Source of the DNA: an uncultured Lachnospiraceae bacterium
GTDB taxonomy: Bacteria > Bacillota > Clostridia > Lachnospirales > Lachnospiraceae
Assembly: GCA_948470905.1 (NCBI GenBank)
Contig: CAOKQK010000011.1
Location: forward strand, 1 to 57,839
Reading direction: 5' to 3'
DNA length: 57,839 bases
The translations under genes were made by a program, and so were the position numbers. Positions 39,343 through 51,026 of the stretch are shown here, one piece after another. The first letter of the stretch is position 1. Each line of letters starts with the position of its first letter. The notes under the pieces were generated by a model. The model ran no database searches and was not told the DNA's origin. It saw only the letters and a program-made list of their open reading frames with translations.

Positions 39343-39927
39343 TTATCCCACCACTCCTGATACATATTCGATAGAGGTAATGTCATCTCCGCCAAAGATA
39401 AAATTCAGCTTCATGCCGCCCTTCTCATACGAAATCCTGTTATCGCTTTCCTCGCTGGCCTGCCCATACGCCTTGATGATATCCGCCCTGGTCTTGGACA
39501 GGTCGATCCCCTCGGGGGTTGCTACCGTATCATCCTTTAAGATTATATATGCGATCCTGTTCTTCTCCCCGTCCGGATAAGTCTCTATCTCATAAGAGCC
39601 GTAACTGTACACATATGCGGTTCCCTGGGCGGCGCAGCTGGGCGCCTCAAAGACACTCTTTGCCTCCCCCAGTTCAGGGACAAGCTCATTCATATCCATA
39701 TCCACCCCCAGAGTGACGCCGTTTATCTCAAACAGGTATCCCGCCTGCTTATCTGCCTCACTTCCGGAGGGCGTGCTTCCCTGCCCGCTGCTCTTGTCAT
39801 CATCTGGACCCGGCTTTGAACTGCACCCTGTCAGCGCAAAAGAAAACGCGATGCCCGCCACAAGCGCCGCGGCACACACTGCCTTCTTTGTCCTCATACC
39901 CATTAACTTTAACTCTCTCGTTTTCAT
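39343..39927 (-). CDS. Lipoprotein of unknown function
   Basis: A lipoprotein signal peptide (KKAVCAAALVAGIAFSFALTGC, lipobox ALTGC about residues 31-35) is followed by a Ser/Gly/Asp linker and a domain of about 140 residues (YLFEINGVTLGVDMDMNELV ... FGGDDITSIEYVSG). The surface domain has no recognised catalytic residues. ATG 39927 is preferred: AAGGAG stands 7 bases upstream, while ATG 39933 touches it. It may be co-transcribed with recJ. Confidence 0.75.
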   Translation of the reverse strand: MKTRELKLMGMRTKKAVCAAALVAGIAFSFALTGCSSKPGPDDDKSSGQGSTPSGSEADKQAGYLFEINGVTLGVDMDMNELVPELGEAKSVFEAPSCAAQGTAYVYSYGSYEIETYPDGEKNRIAYIILKDDTVATPEGIDLSKTRADIIKAYGQASEESDNRISYEKGGMKLNFIFGGDDITSIEYVSGVVG

Positions 39928-40083
39928 GTTCATTCTCCTTTATGATAATTATTCGCCACCTGTGACAGACTGTTCTGTCTCTGCATTTCACCGCTCCCGG
40001 CATGCGCTCTCATTTAAAACAGTATATATTACTCTGTAATCCCTCTCTTTGTCAACATTTCAGGCTTGCAGCAGGACCTTTGA

Positions 40084-41136
40084 TTATCTGGCGGACTGCA
40101 GGCCATAAAACTTTTTCTGCCGCTCAATCTCCGCCCGGTAGTCGGCGAGCTTCTTCTCCCACTCCCGCTCCAGGGCTTCTTCTCCGCGCCGGCTCTCCAG
40201 CCCGCAGTCCCTGGCAAGGATTTCCCCGAAGTATCTGCTGAGCTTCTCCGCACCCCACAGGTTCAGATGCAGTCCCCCGTCATAGGTGTCCTCGTTAAAG
40301 TCCAGCCCGATCTCCTCCGTCACCTCAAGAAAATTGTAATATTTCAAGCCATGCCCTGCGGCGTAGTCCTCCATCTGCTGCTCCCACTGATCATACCAGT
40401 AAGGGTAGAGGCTGGGCGCCTTGACCAGCACCAGCTCCACATCATTTTCCCGGCAAAGCTCCGTCATCATATCCAGATATTTATAGGCATTATCTCCAAA
40501 CTGATAATCCGCCAGCGGCCTTCCCGCAGGAACATTCTCCGCAGGAAGCGCATCCACCCTCATATAATAGCCGTTGAAGGTGACATCCTCCTTCTTCCAG
40601 AAGTATTTGAAATCCTCCGGTATCAGCTGGTTCCATCTGCTGTGATAGCGCAGGATGGGAAAGACATATTCAATAAAGCTCTCCTCCTCCGTCATGGAGG
40701 CCAGGATGCTTTTCACCTTGGGCATGGACCATTTCATCCCGTCCAGGGTCATCCTGTTATAGCTCTCCTTCTGGGGCTCATTGTATTTTAAAGAGAGGAT
40801 GTTAAACACAACCACCTCCGGCTTCTCGTATTTGAAGGTTTCCTCCATCAGATAATAGGACTGCCAGATCAGCTGCTCCGCGCTCCCCCGGATATAGCTG
40901 TTGATCCCGTACTCCTCCCACAGGACCGCCGGAGAAATATTTTCGTACAGCTCGCAGTCTCCGATAAAGATGACATCGTGATCCTTCCTCTCATCATAGT
41001 ATTCCTGGATCATGCCGCCTTCCAGCACGTCATCCATATACTTGGGCATCAGCAGCCTCTGCAGGGCTGCCAACACCGTCCCCAATATGAATATCGTAAC
41101 TATCCACCTTACTATTTTCCTGCCCATATCCTCCAT
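40084..41136 (-). CDS. SGNH-like acyltransferase/esterase with Cys nucleophile (DltD/AlgJ-like role)
   Basis: Last gene of the acylation operon. A signal anchor (about residues 8-28) exports the rest. The SGNH block I reads VIFIGDCELYEN, with Cys61 where Ser is normal; block V is DGGLHLN (Asp286, His290), so a Cys-His-Asp triad is plausible. The family role, by analogy with DltD and AlgJ/AlgX, is moving an acyl group from the MBOAT shuttle to the envelope polymer. The C terminus is a charged coiled coil (EEALEREWEKKLADYRAEIE). It begins about 140 bases after the racemase ends. Function is inferred from context. Confidence 0.75.
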   Translation of the reverse strand: MEDMGRKIVRWIVTIFILGTVLAALQRLLMPKYMDDVLEGGMIQEYYDERKDHDVIFIGDCELYENISPAVLWEEYGINSYIRGSAEQLIWQSYYLMEETFKYEKPEVVVFNILSLKYNEPQKESYNRMTLDGMKWSMPKVKSILASMTEEESFIEYVFPILRYHSRWNQLIPEDFKYFWKKEDVTFNGYYMRVDALPAENVPAGRPLADYQFGDNAYKYLDMMTELCRENDVELVLVKAPSLYPYWYDQWEQQMEDYAAGHGLKYYNFLEVTEEIGLDFNEDTYDGGLHLNLWGAEKLSRYFGEILARDCGLESRRGEEALEREWEKKLADYRAEIERQKKFYGLQSAR

Positions 41137-41277
41137 GCCTTTCCGAAGCCTGCGAACCCGGGCTCACAGACACAGCTCCGCCATATTCCGCATTGATACC
41201 TTTTATGTCCGCCCCGGCGAACATTATGGAAATTAATTTCCATAATCACCCTCGCGCAAGCTTCAACAGAAGCCCTC

Positions 41278-41994
41278 TTAAACTGTGATCAATTCACGGT
41301 ATCCTGCCTTCAGCCTTCCGCAGCCCTCCACTGCACACTTTGCCATCAGCTGCATGGCGTCCAGGTATCCTGCGCCTATCCCATAATTTTCCCGCACAAC
41401 CGACAGCTCCGTGCAGCCGAGAATGATCACCTCCGCCCCAGCCTTCTGCAATTCCTCCGAAGCTGCCCGGAAACGCTCCATCTCCACCGGACGGTTCGCC
41501 TTCACATTCTCATATATGATGTGCATCACGTCCTGCTGCCTCTCTGCCGACGGCACTGCCAGGCTGCAGCCGCTTTTCTCAAAGACCCTCTGGAACAGCC
41601 TGCTCTCCAGCGTCCCTGATGTAGCCATGAGTCCCGCACACCGGATATTCCTCCGGACAAGGTACGCGCAGATCTCATGAATGATATCTATGATCTCCGC
41701 CTGAATCTCACGGGACAGCCTCTCATAAAAGTAATTTGCAGTAATACAGGGGATTGCGATGACCTCCGCCCCCTGCTCCGCCAGCTTTTTGCCTATCCCT
41801 ATCATCTCCGGCGCAGGGTCCTGACTGCTCTGTCCCAGGATAAACCTGGTCCTGTCCGGTATCTGGGGGCAATTATATATGATCATTTCTATATGCTCCT
41901 GATCCGTAACTGCGTCTGTCATCTCGATGACCATCTTCATAAACAGCGCCGTAGCCATGGGGCCCAAGCCGCCAATAACGCCCAGTTTCCGCAT
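41278..41994 (-). CDS. Aspartate/glutamate-type amino-acid racemase
   Basis: PLP-independent two-Cys racemase fold. From ATG 41994 the protein has about 238 residues, starting RKLGVIGGLGPMAT. Both catalytic cysteines are present: Cys83 in IPCITANYF (usual PCNTAH) and Cys194 in ILGCTELSVV. The changes next to the first Cys (Asn to Ile, His to Asn) suggest altered specificity. It is cytosolic and lies inside the acylation operon, pointing to supply of a D-amino acid for the adenylating enzyme; that link is inference. The frame extends to 42072, but an extension lacks family support. Confidence 0.85.
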   Translation of the reverse strand: MRKLGVIGGLGPMATALFMKMVIEMTDAVTDQEHIEMIIYNCPQIPDRTRFILGQSSQDPAPEMIGIGKKLAEQGAEVIAIPCITANYFYERLSREIQAEIIDIIHEICAYLVRRNIRCAGLMATSGTLESRLFQRVFEKSGCSLAVPSAERQQDVMHIIYENVKANRPVEMERFRAASEELQKAGAEVIILGCTELSVVRENYGIGAGYLDAMQLMAKCAVEGCGRLKAGYRELITV

Positions 41995-42079
41995 TTTATT
42001 TTTACCCCTTTTTGTCTCAGAATCTGTCATTTCACTTCCAGACATATACTCCGGCGTGCTCTCGGCACACACCAGCCTG

Positions 42080-43303
42080 CTACTTTATCTCCGGATAGAG
42101 ATCCCTGTTATAATTGTGTGAATTATCATTGGCCAGGGAATATTCCATCAGCTCCGCATCTGTCTTGTAAAAGAAGGTGGAGCCGTCCTTTCTCCGGCAG
42201 GTATCAAAGTGGTGCCAGCCATCCCCCAGGTCGATCAGATTCCAATAATGCATGGTATCCGACGGGATCTTTTCGATATCCATATTAGGGATCCCTGCCC
42301 TGGTCAGCAGGCATTTCGCCGTAGCCGCATACACATAACAGTCACCCTTCCGCTCCACAATGCCATTGTAGGCGCCCTGGACCCATTCACCCTTGGGCGT
42401 CCCGTCAGAATAAGATATCCTGTCATGGCACCAGTCATAGATTGCCTTCGCCTTCTCATACTGGCTCATGGAATCATTCAGGATCGTCTCAAGCACCTTG
42501 TCCGCCTCCGCATATATGATCTCCTCCGTGACCGTATCTATGGTGACAGGCTCCACATGCAGGACAGTGGACACTGACGCCGCATTTCCCGCGCTGTCCA
42601 CCGCGTTATAAATCACAGTATAGTCGCCCGGCGTGCCGGTATCCACCCGGCTGGTATCCACATCCAGCCTTACATCCTGGTCATAGTCATCCGTCACGGT
42701 AATTCCCTTCTTATAAGAGACGCTCCCTCCCGCGGTCATGTACAGCTCGCTCACCCCGTGGATCACCGGAGGCTCCGTGTCATAAACCACCCTCAGGCTT
42801 GCCTGAGCCACAGTGACATTTCCACCTTCATCCTGCACCTCCAAGGATACCGTGCTGACCCCTTCGGTCACACAGTCCGGCTCCTGCACAAAGCGCACCG
42901 AATAGGGCGTCGTTTCCTTTATCTCCACCAGAAAATCTTCGATTTCAACGCTTCCCCCTCCAAATAGAGTGACATCCTGTGTGACTACCTCCGGCGCAAC
43001 CGTATCCCTTATATGAAGGACGCTTGACATATCCCTCCCGTAGACACGGACAACTACATCGTAATCCCCCACATGATTCAGCAGGGCATCCTCCTGGACG
43101 CCGGATACCAAACGGGCATTCTTATTCTCCCATTTTAAGAACATTCCCGCACTGGCACGGACTTCCCCTGCCTCCACTGTCACTTCCTCCAAAACACAGC
43201 AGTACGGCAGGAGGAAATAGACCACTCCCGCAAGCACCGCCAACATGATAATTAACCTGATACGGCGCGCCTGCCTGCGCCTTCTTGAACGTCTTCGACC
43301 CAT
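42080..43303 (-). CDS. Exported transglutaminase-like protein with Ig-like domains
   Basis: A basic N terminus and one membrane segment (about residues 15-34) anchor the protein outside. Two or three Ig-like/DUF5011-type domains (DTVAPEVVTQDV, DTEPPVIHGVSELYM, GDYTVIYNAVDSAGN) lead to a transglutaminase-like domain with a Cys-His-Asp triad, Cys322 (RKGDCYVYAA), His352 (DTMHYWNL) and Asp367 (WHHFD). Such domains cut or form isopeptide bonds. ATG 43303 has GGAGAGGGG. It is the fourth gene of the acylation operon and may act on the modified polymer or wall; the substrate is unknown. Confidence 0.82.
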   Translation of the reverse strand: MGRRRSRRRRQARRIRLIIMLAVLAGVVYFLLPYCCVLEEVTVEAGEVRASAGMFLKWENKNARLVSGVQEDALLNHVGDYDVVVRVYGRDMSSVLHIRDTVAPEVVTQDVTLFGGGSVEIEDFLVEIKETTPYSVRFVQEPDCVTEGVSTVSLEVQDEGGNVTVAQASLRVVYDTEPPVIHGVSELYMTAGGSVSYKKGITVTDDYDQDVRLDVDTSRVDTGTPGDYTVIYNAVDSAGNAASVSTVLHVEPVTIDTVTEEIIYAEADKVLETILNDSMSQYEKAKAIYDWCHDRISYSDGTPKGEWVQGAYNGIVERKGDCYVYAATAKCLLTRAGIPNMDIEKIPSDTMHYWNLIDLGDGWHHFDTCRRKDGSTFFYKTDAELMEYSLANDNSHNYNRDLYPEIK

Positions 43304-43374
43304 TTCCCCTCTCCATAGTCCCAATGACTTATCCTACAATTCCTTAAGGAAGCGCCGATCAAATCACCGTTTCC

Positions 43375-44967
43375 CTAAAACCTGTTATAAATGAACTGAC
43401 TGGCGTCATATCCGATCCCGTAAGCGCCAAAGAGCAGCACGGCCAGGAAAAGTACAGACCATACCACAGCCCGCACCGGATACGGCCTCGCCGCGATCCG
43501 CTCCCTGACGCCGCCTCTCCGGTGCAGTATCCCTATTATCACAAACAGTACAGCCCCGGCCGCCAGAACGCCGTAATCCCCTGCCGTGATGCCCAGCTCC
43601 AATAAAGCCCCATTCCACAGAATGTTCCAGTTCTTCGCCGTAAACATGGAGCCAAACATACGAAACGTGGTTCCTATATCGCTGTAGCAGTCAAACATTT
43701 TCAGGACACTGATCAGCAGAAAAGTACGCGCCACCTGAAAAATATTATACAGCCTTGTGTTGCTGAACCGAAAGCGCTTGTGGAAGCGTCCGTAAAGAGG
43801 TTCCAGCTCCTCGGAGATCATCAGGACAAAATAGTTCGCCAGCCCCCACACCACAAAGTTCCAGCTGGCGCCATGCCAGAAGCCGGTGGCAAACCAGACC
43901 ACAAATGACGACAGATACACCGGCAGCCTCATCCCTATCTTTTTCCCCAGATGATTGCGGGAAAATTTGGAGATCTTCTGCATGGGCTTACAGATAGAGA
44001 TCGGATAGAAAAGATAATCCTTAAACCAGGTCCCCATGGTGATATGCCATCTGCGCCAGTATTCCTTGAGGGACATGGAGAAATAGGGCGTCTCAAAGTT
44101 TTCCTGCAGCCTGATCCCCAGAACCTGCGCTATGCCTATGGTGATATCAATGCCGCCTGTGAAATCCGCGTAAAGCTGCACGGTATAGAACAGCATCCCC
44201 ACAAAGGCATAGGCCCCATGGTACTCCCCGGGCGCGTCAATGATACAGCTTAGAGCCGGCAGTATCCTGTCTGCGATCACCATCTTTTTAAAATATCCCC
44301 ACAGCATGCGCTGCAGCCCGAAGCTCACCGTCCGGGCATCAAAGACATGTTCCGCGTACAATGTCCTGGACAGGTCATCAAAACGGCTGATCGGTCCCTG
44401 GACCAGCTGCGGAAAAAAGGAGACAAACAGGGCAAACCTGAAAAAGTTCTTCTCCGCAGGAACGGTCCCCCGATATACATCTATCAGATACCCCAGCGCC
44501 TGGAAGGTATAGAAGGAAATACCCATGGGCAGCACCAGCGTAACAAAAGAAAGCCTCTCCGTCCCCCCGAAGGCATTCATGATCCCATTTACATTCGAGA
44601 TAAAGAAGTTGGCATACTTCAATGTGGCGAGAATGCCCAAATTAATGAGAAGACCAAGAAGCAGCCACCGGAAACGTACCCTGTGCCTGCTCTCTTTGTA
44701 GGACTTTTTCCCGTCCCTGTCCATCTCCGCCTTGTGCTCCCGCAGATAGGCTGTCTGCCGTTCCTGGTCGCGCTCTATGATGCGCGCCGTAAAATAGATT
44801 GTCACTGTGGTCGCCAATATATATATCAGGAACCTCGGATCTGCGGCAGCATAAAAAATCCAGCTCGCCGCCAGCAGAAGCATCCACTGCACCTTTTTCG
44901 GCACAAGATAATATACCAGGAACAATACACCGACAAACCCTAAAAACTCGTATGACGTAAAGAACAT
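43375..44967 (-). CDS. AlgI-type membrane-bound O-acyltransferase with C-terminal acyl-shuttle motif
   Basis: Carries acyl groups from a cytosolic thioester across the membrane. The 530-residue protein has about 10 membrane segments, the MBOAT motif EYWRRWHITMGTWFKDYLFYP and catalytic His365 in GFWHGASWN. Length and motifs are closer to AlgI/PatA than to DltB. The protein ends in FIYNRF (525-530). Work on the Dlt pathway showed that a C-terminal hexapeptide with a Tyr, on DltX or fused to the MBOAT, carries the acyl group, so Tyr527 is the predicted shuttle residue. ATG 44967 follows GGGAGG. A separate DltX is not needed. Confidence 0.88.
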   Translation of the reverse strand: MFFTSYEFLGFVGVLFLVYYLVPKKVQWMLLLAASWIFYAAADPRFLIYILATTVTIYFTARIIERDQERQTAYLREHKAEMDRDGKKSYKESRHRVRFRWLLLGLLINLGILATLKYANFFISNVNGIMNAFGGTERLSFVTLVLPMGISFYTFQALGYLIDVYRGTVPAEKNFFRFALFVSFFPQLVQGPISRFDDLSRTLYAEHVFDARTVSFGLQRMLWGYFKKMVIADRILPALSCIIDAPGEYHGAYAFVGMLFYTVQLYADFTGGIDITIGIAQVLGIRLQENFETPYFSMSLKEYWRRWHITMGTWFKDYLFYPISICKPMQKISKFSRNHLGKKIGMRLPVYLSSFVVWFATGFWHGASWNFVVWGLANYFVLMISEELEPLYGRFHKRFRFSNTRLYNIFQVARTFLLISVLKMFDCYSDIGTTFRMFGSMFTAKNWNILWNGALLELGITAGDYGVLAAGAVLFVIIGILHRRGGVRERIAARPYPVRAVVWSVLFLAVLLFGAYGIGYDASQFIYNRF

Positions 44968-45003
44968 AGTCTACCTCCCGTGCATGGAATGCACAGTCCG
45001 CCC

Positions 45004-45234
45004 TTAATCTTCCTCCTCGATCTCCTGAATCAGGGCATACAGGGCCTTTGCCGAATTGAAATTCTCAGGCAGTATCCTCTTTGCGTCGATGGTCACATCG
45101 AACACATCCTGGATCTCCGCAATCAGCGTGACAATGTCGAAGGAATCCAGGATCTCATCATCCACCAGATGCTGCTCCGTCTCAAAATCCACCTCGGGAT
45201 GCAGTTCCTTCAAAATTTCCAATAAATCTTCCAT
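45004..45234 (-). CDS. Acyl/aminoacyl carrier protein (DltC-like)
   Basis: The 76-residue acidic four-helix protein has the phosphopantetheine Ser31 in ILDSFDIVTLI, like DltC (LLDSF). It would carry the amino acid as a thioester from the adenylating enzyme to the MBOAT. ATG 45234 follows GAGGAGA. It lies 42 bases after the adenylating enzyme gene and 36 bases before the MBOAT gene. A general fatty-acid ACP is unlikely in this setting. Confidence 0.9.
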   Translation of the reverse strand: MEDLLEILKELHPEVDFETEQHLVDDEILDSFDIVTLIAEIQDVFDVTIDAKRILPENFNSAKALYALIQEIEEED

Positions 45235-45276
45235 TTTTTCAATCTCCTCTACTTATTTAACATATTTTTCAATCTA

Positions 45277-46791
45277 TCAGTTTCCACTTTGCATCTGCTT
45301 TAAAGCAACCCTGTCGATCTTCCCGTTGGCTGTAAAAGGCATGCTCTCCAGCCGCACCGTCCTGTTGGGGAGCATGTACCTGGGCAGCTTTGTCTTCATC
45401 GCCAGGACAACCTCCTTCTCGGTGATATCCCCCACATAATACAGCACGATCTTGCCTTTATCCATATCATAGATACATGCCGATAGCTTGATCCCGGGAA
45501 GCATGTTCACATTCACCTCGATCTCTCCCAGCTCTATACGGTGCCCCATGTGCTTGATCTGGAAATCCCTGCGGGACACGAAGCAAAGCTCCCCGGCCTT
45601 ATTGATAACGCCCATATCCCCTGTCCTGTAGATCAGCTCCGGGTAGGCACTGTTCAAAGGATTCTGCACAAAAGCCTCCCCTGTCCTGACAGGGTCATTG
45701 TAATAGCCCAGCGTCAGCGCAGTTCCCCTGACACAGATCTCTCCCTGCTGTCCCTTAGCCGCCAGCCTGCCCTGCTCATCCAGGAGCAGGATCTCACGGT
45801 TGGGAAAAGGATGCCCGATGGGAATCACCTCATTGTCCTCAAACTCCCGCTCCACCCTGTAATAGCAGCACATCCCGGTGCTCTCCGTGGGCCCGTACAG
45901 ATTGGTAAATACAGCCTTGGGCAATGCCTGGCGCCAGATTCGGAACTGTTTGATGGGAAATACCTCGCTGCCAAAGGCAATCGTGTGCAGATATTCCGGC
46001 TTCACAGAGTCAAAAGTCCCAAAGGCGCTGACCATAGTCAGGGCGGAAACCACCCAGCAGATCGTATTGATCCTGTGCTCGTTCAAAAATTCCACCAGGG
46101 CCGTAGGAATGGAGAAAAGGCTCTTGGGGATGAGATAGGTGGTGGCGCCGAATTTCAGGGTGGGATATATCTCCTTCAGGCAGGCGTCAAAGTACAGCGG
46201 CGACTGGTTTCCGAACACAGTGTCTTCATGAAAGCCCAGGATCTCGGAGAGCTGCTCCACATAATCGATCACTGACCTGTGGCAGGCGGCAACCCCCTTG
46301 GGGATGCCGGTGGAACCGGACGTGAAGACAATATAGATCGGGTCTGTGTCGATGGCTCTCCTGTATATTGCATCCAATGCCCCGTCGTCGATGTCCGTGT
46401 GTACGATATCCTCATAACACACGATCTCGCCGTCCCCGATCTCAAAATCCTTCGCCTTCTCCGCCGTGGTGCTGTCACAGATGATCAGGGGAGACTTTAC
46501 ATTGTCCAGGATGAGCTGGATCCTGCCTGCCGGCATTTCCTCATCAATGGGCACATAGAAATCCCCTCCTGCGATAATGCCGTAGAAAGCAGTGATCTCC
46601 TGGGGCGATTTCTTCATAAATACCACCACAGGCTTTTTGCAGATACCCTTCCGGCTTAAATAACTGCCGATGCTGCGGCAACGCCTGTACACCTCTTCAA
46701 AAGTATATTCCGTCGTGCCGTCCGAGTACGCCTTCTTGTCCGGCTTCTTCTTTACAATCTCGTATAGATACCTTAAGACATTATTCTGCAT
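45277..46791 (-). CDS. Amino-acid adenylating enzyme (DltA-like)
   Basis: Activates an amino acid as its adenylate and loads it on the carrier protein. The 504-residue stand-alone A domain has FTSGSTGIPKG (156-166), NLYGPTEST, YRTGDMG, RRDFQIKHMGHRIELGEIE and the A10 Lys in TANGKIDR. Asp202 (FDACLKE) is the amino-group ligand. By eye, GrsA position 239 aligns with Lys206, where DltA has Met; Lys there occurs in some Glu-activating domains. So the substrate may be an acidic or other amino acid rather than D-Ala. First gene of the operon, with promoter at 46835-46863. Confidence 0.87.
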   Translation of the reverse strand: MQNNVLRYLYEIVKKKPDKKAYSDGTTEYTFEEVYRRCRSIGSYLSRKGICKKPVVVFMKKSPQEITAFYGIIAGGDFYVPIDEEMPAGRIQLILDNVKSPLIICDSTTAEKAKDFEIGDGEIVCYEDIVHTDIDDGALDAIYRRAIDTDPIYIVFTSGSTGIPKGVAACHRSVIDYVEQLSEILGFHEDTVFGNQSPLYFDACLKEIYPTLKFGATTYLIPKSLFSIPTALVEFLNEHRINTICWVVSALTMVSAFGTFDSVKPEYLHTIAFGSEVFPIKQFRIWRQALPKAVFTNLYGPTESTGMCCYYRVEREFEDNEVIPIGHPFPNREILLLDEQGRLAAKGQQGEICVRGTALTLGYYNDPVRTGEAFVQNPLNSAYPELIYRTGDMGVINKAGELCFVSRRDFQIKHMGHRIELGEIEVNVNMLPGIKLSACIYDMDKGKIVLYYVGDITEKEVVLAMKTKLPRYMLPNRTVRLESMPFTANGKIDRVALKQMQSGN

Positions 46792-46834
46792 AAATCACTC
46801 ATGCCTTCCTGCAGCACTTATTTTTACTGCACAT

Positions 46835-46863
46835 ATTATAATCACAATGCATCTGTTTTGCAA
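46835..46863 (-). promoter_or_regulatory. Promoter of the acylation operon
   Basis: TTGCAA (46858-46863), 17 bases, TATAAT (46835-46840) on the minus strand, in the gap between secDF and the adenylating enzyme gene. The leader is about 36 bases. Confidence 0.7.
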
Positions 46864-49272: not shown

Positions 49273-50670
49273 TCAATCTCCTTCCTGGTCCTCCATCTCG
49301 GCAACCTTCAGCATGATCGCACACTCCACGCGCTTTCTCTCCAGCTCGCAGCCCACCTCATAGACGTCGTTGATCTTTCCATGGAAGTTGTACGAGTTGG
49401 CAGCGCAGCCGCCGCTGCAGTAAAACCTGGCAAAACATTTCCTGCACTTGTCCTTGGCGTAGACATTGCAATGCTTGAAATCGTCCCGGATGTCCTCTCT
49501 GACGATCCCCTGATCCACATTCCCCATGAGAAACTTCTCATTTCCCACAAACTGGTGGCAGGGATACAGGTCCCCCCAGGGAGTGACAGCCAGGTACTCC
49601 GTCCCCGAGCCGCAGCCGGACAGCCTCTTTGCTACACAGGGGCCGCCCTCTAAATCTATCATAAAATGGAAGAAATGAAAAGCCCTTCCTTCCCTTCTGC
49701 GTCTTATCATCTCCGCCGCAAGCCTGTCATATTCTTCCTTCAGCTTCGGCAGATCCGCCTCTGTGATGGCGTAATCGTCCTCAGGCTGCGCCACCACCGG
49801 CTCCACGGAGATCTGTTCAAAGCCCAGGTCGGCAAGGTGCAGCACATCCTGTGAAAAATCCAGGTTGTTATGGGTAAAGGTCCCTCTGACATAATACCTT
49901 TCCTGCCCCCTGCTCTCCGCCACCTTCCGGAATTTGGGCACGATCAGGTCATAACTCCCCTGCCCGCCCCTAAAGGGCCTCATCCTGTCATGGATCTCTT
50001 TTCTCCCGTCTATGCTCAGCACGATATTTGCCATTTCACGGTTCGCAAATTCCAGGATATCATCATTTAACAGCACACCGTTGGTAGTCAGGGTAAAGCG
50101 GAACTTTTTATTACAGGGTCCCTCAAGGCTCCTGCCATACTCCACCAGGTCTTTTACCACCTGCCAGTTCATCAGGGGCTCACCGCCAAAGAAGTCCACC
50201 TCCAGGTTGATCCTGTTCCCGGAGTTTGCCACCAGGAAGTCCAGCGCCTTCTTCCCCACCTCAAAGCTCATCAGTGCCCGTCTGCCGTGATACTCCCCCT
50301 CCTGTGCAAAGCAGTACCTGCAGGCGAGGTTGCAGTCATGGGCAATATGCAGGCAGAGCGCCTTTACCACGGTCTTTCTGTTCTTAAAGTCAAACACATA
50401 ATTTTCATAGATATCGGGGGCAAAGAGCTGCCCCTGCTTCTCCAGCTCCAAAACTTCCTCTACAGCCTCCTCAATCTCCTCCGGCGGATAGGGGATGTCC
50501 GCCAGATGCAGGACCGCCGTCTTGATTGTATCCGCGTCCTTGATGCCTTCATTGACAAGAGGCTCCACCAGGGGGATCATGGAGTAGACTATGTCGTCCA
50601 CCACATGGACAGAGCCGCTGTTCACATCCAGCACAATGTTGTACCCATTGCTTTTATATTGATGTATCAC
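49273..50670 (-). CDS. scfB: SCIFF peptide radical SAM maturase
   Basis: Forms thioether cross-links in the SCIFF peptide. Residues 1-85 form a RiPP-recognition-like domain. The radical SAM cluster motif is CNLACRYC (Cys113, 117, 120). The C-terminal SPASM region provides Cys for auxiliary iron-sulfur clusters (SGCGSGTEYL, DLYPCHQF, CRKCFARFYCSGGCAAN). Length is 465 aa. The start is GTG 50670 with AAAGGA upstream. The peptide gene lies 123 bases upstream with a hairpin between, and secDF follows. Confidence 0.95.
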   Translation of the reverse strand: MIHQYKSNGYNIVLDVNSGSVHVVDDIVYSMIPLVEPLVNEGIKDADTIKTAVLHLADIPYPPEEIEEAVEEVLELEKQGQLFAPDIYENYVFDFKNRKTVVKALCLHIAHDCNLACRYCFAQEGEYHGRRALMSFEVGKKALDFLVANSGNRINLEVDFFGGEPLMNWQVVKDLVEYGRSLEGPCNKKFRFTLTTNGVLLNDDILEFANREMANIVLSIDGRKEIHDRMRPFRGGQGSYDLIVPKFRKVAESRGQERYYVRGTFTHNNLDFSQDVLHLADLGFEQISVEPVVAQPEDDYAITEADLPKLKEEYDRLAAEMIRRRREGRAFHFFHFMIDLEGGPCVAKRLSGCGSGTEYLAVTPWGDLYPCHQFVGNEKFLMGNVDQGIVREDIRDDFKHCNVYAKDKCRKCFARFYCSGGCAANSYNFHGKINDVYEVGCELERKRVECAIMLKVAEMEDQEGD

Positions 50671-50793: not shown

Positions 50794-50940
50794 TTACTTA
50801 TTAACCTTCTCGCAGCTTTGATTCCCCACAGTGCAGGAGGTCTTGCAGGCAGACTGACAGGAAGTCTGGCATTCGCCGCATCCGCCCTTCTTCATAGATT
50901 CCTTTAAATTTCTTGTTGTCAATGTCTTAATGTGCTTCAT
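50794..50940 (-). CDS. scfA: SCIFF precursor peptide (six Cys in forty-five residues)
   Basis: The 48-residue precursor starts MKHIKTLTTRNLKESMKKGG, the strongly conserved leader of the SCIFF family, and has six Cys at 21, 24, 28, 32, 36 and 43 (CGECQTSCQSACKTSC ... SC). The maturase downstream makes thioether bonds between Cys and Thr. SCIFF is nearly universal in Clostridia, but its role is unknown. ATG 50940 follows GGAGAG. The open frame to 50985 has no support. Its own promoter is at 51027-51054. Confidence 0.96.
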   Translation of the reverse strand: MKHIKTLTTRNLKESMKKGGCGECQTSCQSACKTSCTVGNQSCEKVNK

Positions 50941-51026
50941 GATCGATACTCTCCATTCCCGCCTCTTTCCCTGAAAACAGGGCACAGCGTATATTTTTCC
51001 AAACCTTTAACAGGAAAACTGAGCGT

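Follow-up and report, generated by a model that had tools for sequence, protein, structure and literature searches.

The window analysed here is a stretch of 57,839 nucleotides from an uncultured Lachnospiraceae bacterium (contig CAOKQK010000011.1, assembly GCA_948470905.1). It carries a gene set for a putative envelope aminoacylation system that comprises an adenylating enzyme (A), a carrier protein, an MBOAT, a transglutaminase-like protein (TG), an Asp/Glu-type racemase (RAC) and an SGNH-fold transferase (Table 1). An earlier note on this DNA had described these six genes as following one another in this order on one strand, which we confirmed for the minus strand; the gene names match our family searches. 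A seventh gene, encoding the lipoprotein lp196, lies downstream of the SGNH gene and is part of the set. The short gaps mentioned in the earlier note hold for the first four intervals from the A gene onwards (42, 36, 50 and 7 bases) but not for the intervals between the RAC and SGNH genes (141 bases) and between the SGNH and lipoprotein genes (150 bases). Similarly, a promoter-like match does precede the A gene. That it is the single promoter of the set is not established, however, because a second promoter-like site is located at 40055-40026 ahead of the lipoprotein gene and such sites number 13 in the scan as against 8.4 +/- 3.1 in shuffles.

Table 1. Genes and promoter-like site of the gene set (positions in the window; scores in bits with model cut-offs)
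Feature	Position	Strand	Characteristics
Promoter-like site TTGCAA-17-TATAAT, 5' of A gene	46835-46863	-	consensus match only
Adenylating enzyme (A), DltA-like	45277-46791	-	504 aa; Pfam AMP-binding 215, cut-off 29.9
Carrier protein	45004-45234	-	76 aa; Pfam PP-binding 22.6, cut-off 20.8; phosphopantetheine Ser in LDSFD
MBOAT	43375-44967	-	530 aa; PF03062 45.3, cut-off 27; fused C-terminal FIYNRF
Transglutaminase-like protein (TG), membrane-anchored, Ig-like domain	42080-43324	-	Transglut_core PF01841 42.2, cut-off 23
Asp/Glu-type racemase (RAC)	41278-42072	-	Asp_Glu_race PF01177 125.5, cut-off 31
SGNH-fold transferase, membrane-anchored, Cys61 replacing catalytic Ser	40084-41136	-	Lipase_GDSL_2 19.1, under cut-off 32.9; predicted fold SGNH
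Lipoprotein lp196, seventh gene	39343-39933	-	196 residues; no Pfam family; single invariant extracellular Cys100

Three of the gene starts are likely to lie further downstream. An ATG at 41994 would align the start of RAC with that of the solved aspartate racemase 1jfl, and starts at 43303 for TG and 41127 for the SGNH protein appear preferable because they are preceded by the ribosome-binding-like GGAGG and GGAGAGGGG. The region between the RAC and SGNH genes contains a perfect 24-base palindrome (41223-41246), a candidate operator or processing site of which the window holds a single copy and 100 shuffles none.

The gene set is conserved within a limited taxonomic range. Orthologs of the SGNH protein, defined by a match at E 1e-100 or better, occur in 35 of 200 genomes evenly drawn from the window's family, its own genome included; outside that genome they are 45-75% identical to the window's protein, and the next match is at 37%. 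Phylum-wide, only 3 of 398 genomes gave an SGNH match at E 1e-70, namely that of the window and two others from its family. The best 80 of 579 named loci, retrieved with two patterns of which one contains G[DN]CE and in some cases originating from genomes already represented among the other loci (L089 equals L048), belong mostly to Lachnospiraceae, Butyrivibrio, Pseudobutyrivibrio and Acetatifactor, with a few from Oscillospiraceae-type bacteria. Cultured strains with such a locus include Pseudobutyrivibrio xylanivorans MZ8 (L135) and P. ruminis DSM 9787 (L108). Gene content was determined by tblastn for the 47 named loci whose flanks extend over 8 kb or more upstream and 6 kb or more downstream: 35 have all seven genes and 7 have the six without the lipoprotein gene (all six genes in 42 of 47), whereas the racemase gene alone is missing in 3 and the remaining 2 are more reduced. 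The seven genes also occur in several orders among relatives, and this recurrence in many genomes and arrangements argues against a chance grouping. The racemase and TG genes, whose absence from beside the set in relatives would have spoken against a distinct system according to the earlier note, are thus kept there. When neighbouring open reading frames of 114 loci were clustered, six of the set's families came out on top (the carrier is too short for this approach), followed by an asparagine-synthetase-like gene in 17 loci, one of which has an unrelated copy on the opposite strand; all other clusters comprise at most 12 loci each. Our searches of the open-licence literature returned no description of this gene system.

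The substrate pocket of the A enzyme and its association with the racemase are the main pointers to the donor. By motif alignment the pocket code is D-A-K-S-I-F-L-G-M-K. An Asp at the first position serves as the alpha-amino anchor in amino-acid-activating A domains. The third position (pocket position 239, Lys206 of the window's enzyme) is Lys in all 17 A enzymes read beside a racemase; in the best 80 of the 579 named loci it is Lys in 62 and Arg in 4 of the 66 readable sequences. Retention of a positive charge at this site suggests that the substrate has an acidic side chain, and the pocket therefore seems to fit an acidic amino acid better than alanine. Consistent with a functional carrier, the phosphopantetheine-accepting Ser is found in 31 of 31 aligned proteins. 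RAC exceeds the cut-off of TIGR00035 (187.6 versus 93.1 bits), its nearest solved structure is that of aspartate racemase 1jfl, and both catalytic Cys residues are present in all 17 racemases read (L050 not being among them). Forty genomes were searched for the racemase, of which G016, G055 and G199 were excluded since a contig end truncates their A gene. Of the 23 genomes whose pocket is of the acid type (DAK), 21 contain a racemase, compared with only 2 of 14 others (p 4e-6, a value made optimistic by shared ancestry), and it is located at the SGNH or A locus in 20 of 23 as opposed to none of 14. This linkage ties the racemase to the A enzyme and in that respect supports the earlier note. 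In G134, a racemase of another lineage (with the motif ACNTSH, not PC[IVF]T) adjoins the A gene, and this looks like a separate recruitment.

The asparagine-synthetase-like gene makes aspartate the best guess for the donor. In 17 of 149 loci it adjoins the set or lies within it, always on the same strand; its product exceeds the TIGR01536 cut-off, and the 16 proteins compared share 60-98% identity. Two of the 35 clade genomes contain a close relative of the gene, and a further match is 40% identical; the window's own genome gave no match at E 1e-120. A parallel is offered by the D-Asp cross-bridges of lactococcal and enterococcal peptidoglycan, which are made by an aspartate racemase and a D-Asp ligase and amidated by AsnH. 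There, too, an Asp-type racemase is found near an amino-acid-activating enzyme and the gene set here sometimes includes an asparagine-synthetase-like amidator, but the cross-bridge ligase is an ATP-grasp enzyme acting inside the cell, whereas the present system would combine a carrier-loading A enzyme with MBOAT-dependent export. We consider it probable, with reasonable but not high confidence, that the donor is an acidic amino acid; for D-Asp itself the chances seem about even.

Several observations weigh against an acidic D-amino acid, or D-Asp in particular, as the donor. Two genomes with a DAK pocket (G065, G076) gave no racemase match, a third (G002) has only an ordinary, unlinked racemase, and G117 and G198 possess a racemase but no such A enzyme. 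At three loci that combine the DAK pocket with the asparagine-synthetase-like gene (L140, L149, L162), no racemase was found on the locus, to which the search was confined. Lys239 also occurs in A enzymes with a DVK code from genomes that lack a racemase (L086, L087, L179, L180), and the pocket positions were assigned by motif alignment. Moreover, most linked racemases have PC[IVF]T in place of the PCNT of ordinary ones (in L198 the first motif was unmatched), so that their substrate could differ. RAC also exceeds the cut-off of the NCBIfam model for the cysteate racemase CuyB (NF052483; 202.3 versus 190), as do its counterparts in five of six relatives (L048, L057, L067, L049 and L064, with L058 slightly under at 184.2). 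The same machinery might accordingly use another acidic donor, be it D-Glu, cysteate, or an L-form with the racemase serving a different purpose. The cysteate-racemase score and the altered racemase motif speak for this possibility, and Lys at position 239 occurs in Glu-type codes, although our literature searches returned nothing usable on this association. The similarity to 1jfl argues in favour of aspartate instead, as does the asparagine-synthetase-like partner even though it is found in just 17 of the 149 loci, and we regard a different acidic donor as possible yet doubtful. In a sister group (L070, L073, L076, L079) the pocket is divergent, three of the four enzymes lack the first Asp, and genome searches detected no racemase. 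Since the alpha-amino-binding residue is mostly lost and a racemase was not found, these A enzymes may load a substrate that is not an alpha-amino acid.

The overall composition recalls the Dlt system, in which D-alanine is transferred to teichoic acid. Both have an adenylating enzyme, a carrier, an MBOAT and an SGNH-fold transferase, and in both the donor is an amino acid, with a D-form implied. By contrast, the set described here has an acidic-residue pocket, a Cys in place of the SGNH Ser, a racemase of its own, TG and lipoprotein partners, and a shuttle motif that is fused to the MBOAT and not carried by a separate DltX. The DltA models score 288 and 286.6 bits on A, about half of their cut-offs (476 and 559.85), the DltB model 134.5 of 375 on the MBOAT, and the DltC models 29.7 of 68 and 19.1 of 52.35 on the carrier. 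The DltD family PF04914 matches neither the SGNH protein nor any other protein of the genome, which is 90% complete (Bacillus subtilis and Lactococcus lactis gave positive controls). We therefore rejected a plain dlt operon, and the distinctness from dlt postulated in the earlier note is upheld. A separate complete dlt operon, which that note would have counted against it, was not found insofar as the 90%-complete genome has no DltD match. The set might nevertheless be a divergent dlt operon that activates D-Ala and yields D-alanylated teichoic acid, with the racemase as a mere neighbour that has its own role. The DltA models do rank among the best matches of A, the MBOAT has no NCBIfam match other than the DltB model, and the lack of a DltD match leaves the place of a D-alanylation system vacant. 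However, DltA is not known to have a charged residue at position 239, where all linked-type A proteins read have Lys or Arg; furthermore, the racemase linkage survives gene rearrangement and all Dlt models remain far below their cut-offs. A divergent dlt operon thus appears unlikely. Mutual exclusion between the set and DltD was considered and dropped, as full-length DltD is present in 9 of the 200 family genomes and in none of the 35 (p 0.36).

FIY is found in 40 of 40 aligned MBOAT proteins and the strict FxYxxF motif in 36 of them. According to the available text of PMC12148441, FxYxxF is a shuttle motif in which the acyl group is borne by the Tyr; it sits on DltX in the carrier-fed Dlt system and is fused to the MBOAT in acyl-CoA pathways such as PatA. 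Carrier and fused motif co-occur in the locus studied here, a pairing of a carrier-fed donor with an MBOAT-borne Tyr shuttle that the same portion of PMC12148441 does not describe. The fused C-terminal motif and the separate extracellular SGNH protein are shared with PatA/PatB and AlgI/AlgJ, from which the set differs by a donor that, judged by gene content, would be bound to a carrier instead of coenzyme A, and by a Cys nucleophile. In terms of sequence the system is a hybrid of Dlt and PatAB and belongs to neither, because the Dlt equivalog models and the DltD search fail and the SGNH Ser is absent. The window's own genome contains a second carrier-fed MBOAT set on contig C19 (L009, 2891-8044), with an FkbH-like protein, a carrier, an MBOAT ending in FIYQIF and a Ser-type SGNH protein, which perhaps uses a glyceryl donor. 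Contig C26 of the same genome (L016, 4493-7051) encodes a member of the Antibiotic_NAT family, a carrier and another DltA-like enzyme, whose pocket reads DAPSVFMYAK; no MBOAT was seen beside these genes.

The SGNH protein reads GDCE at the position of the nucleophile, where relatives carry Ser. Among 35 clade loci (the window and L048-L081) this residue is Cys in 34 and Ser in one (L078), as compared to Ser in all seven distant outgroup loci (L009, L082-L087). The clade has a branch support of 97/98 in a tree from which L077 and L085 were left out; L081 is labelled 'noA' there despite having a truncated A gene, and the labels of L054, L059 and L065, whose A gene is truncated or located elsewhere, follow the gene set. 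All of the best 80 named loci also have Cys, but this is partly due to the G[DN]CE pattern used to retrieve them, and 34 of 35 is the fairer figure. The Ser in L078 indicates that Cys is not absolutely required, a point against the model favoured below. The predicted structure (predicted local distance difference test, pLDDT, 93.1) is SGNH-like by comparison with Foldseek and VIA-align. Residue 1 of TesA aligns with residue 52 of the model; the catalytic Ser of TesA, which we take to be Ser10, would by arithmetic be the counterpart of Cys61. A second conserved residue, Cys228, is probably structural because it is shared by the Ser-type outgroup proteins. DltD is absent from the best 50 VIA-align matches but is listed by Foldseek. 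Sequence comparison of the SGNH protein with PDB entries yielded nothing useful, and we found no Cys-type SGNH transferase in the open-licence literature. Such an enzyme could make an amide as readily as an ester, so the esterification named in the earlier note is one of two conceivable reactions.

TG and the lipoprotein seem to be more general accessories. The Cys-His-Asp triad of TG is present in 30 of 30 aligned rows and the lone Cys of the lipoprotein (SC or NC) in 29 of 29. A lipoprotein profile matches all 35 clade genomes but only 11 of 165 others; 26 of the 35 had contributed to the profile, and the nine that had not were all matched (p 5e-10), five of them on a contig different from that of the SGNH gene. 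PDB and Foldseek searches were less informative. For TG, the PDB returned a single weak match, which covers the Ig-like domain, and the best Foldseek matches of the lipoprotein, YjgB/DUF4309 (E 0.006) and YfeY (E 0.018), are weak, with none at E 0.001, so we describe it only as a predicted two-lobed alpha/beta lipoprotein. Both proteins are encoded at L071, L072, L075, L078 and L080, where A, carrier and racemase genes were not found; the genomes of L072, L075, L078 and L080 gave no A match at E 1e-60, whereas in the L071 genome another contig carries an A gene of the DVK type. In the tree the donor-less state needs three changes, at least two of which are forced by well-supported branches (with L081 mislabelled). 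The pair also occurs in L185, L186 and L188 beside an AlgI-type MBOAT and a differently built SGNH protein that we read as AlgJ/DHHW-like from its motifs. Participation of TG in the chemistry of the D-amino acid, as implied by the earlier note, is therefore not supported. Retention in the absence of donor genes ties TG and the lipoprotein to the acceptor side of MBOAT-SGNH systems, outside the membrane, and the pair appears to be an accessory that also operates with different acyl donors. At L080 (6077-6967), the TG partner has choline-binding-type wall repeats, which hints that TG works at the wall.

TG might even be the final ligase, with the amino acid ending up not on the envelope but on a small molecule or on a protein that is secreted or exposed at the surface. 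The invariant residues of TG and the lipoprotein, both kept with different donors, are compatible with such a role. As far as the accessible parts of PMC12148441 and PMC9487903 go, however, MBOAT-SGNH pairs act on envelope polymers. The wall-binding repeats of the L080 protein likewise speak against a protein or small-molecule target, which makes this scenario very unlikely. A bolder idea, rather unlikely in our estimate, is envelope D-aspartylation by way of an extracellular thiol relay, in which the group would pass from the MBOAT Tyr to SGNH Cys61 and on to the Cys residues of the lipoprotein and TG as thioester stations, with an amide formed at the end. The TG-lipoprotein pair would then be a shared terminal module for varied acyl donors such as acidic D-amino acids, other carboxylic acids and acetyl.

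We slightly favour the view that the gene set encodes an envelope aminoacylation system with an acidic D-amino acid, most likely D-Asp, as donor. In this model, whose order of transfers is borrowed from Dlt and PatA/B, the racemase would make the D-form of the acidic amino acid, which the A enzyme would activate and load onto the carrier. The MBOAT would then carry the residue to the outside and attach it to the Tyr in the enzyme's own FxYxxF tail, which is fused as in PatA and would replace DltX. From this tail the group would be passed to Cys61 of the SGNH protein, forming a thioester, and finally be handed to an extracellular acceptor, with TG and the lipoprotein serving the acceptor side. 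Transfer to the envelope is likely. Sequence and conservation support the identity and linkage of the components, the motifs, the exchange of Ser for Cys and the association of the racemase with the pocket type, while D-Asp as such, the succession of transfers, the acceptor and the functions of TG and the lipoprotein are inferred. If this model is correct, D-alanine is not the sole amino acid put on the envelope by carrier-MBOAT-SGNH transfer, and an acidic D-amino acid adorns the surface of many bacteria of this family, which is abundant in the gut and the rumen. Such a residue would alter surface charge very differently from D-Ala, with a possible bearing on resistance to antimicrobial peptides and on host recognition. 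Owing to the natural Ser-to-Cys switch, the acyl-enzyme intermediate proposed here lends itself to direct testing.

Elsewhere in the window, a SCIFF radical-SAM peptide maturase is encoded at 49273-50670 on the minus strand (TIGR03974, 797 bits; cut-off 425). Just upstream of its gene, at 50794-50985 on the same strand, lies a small open reading frame for a Cys-rich SCIFF-like peptide.

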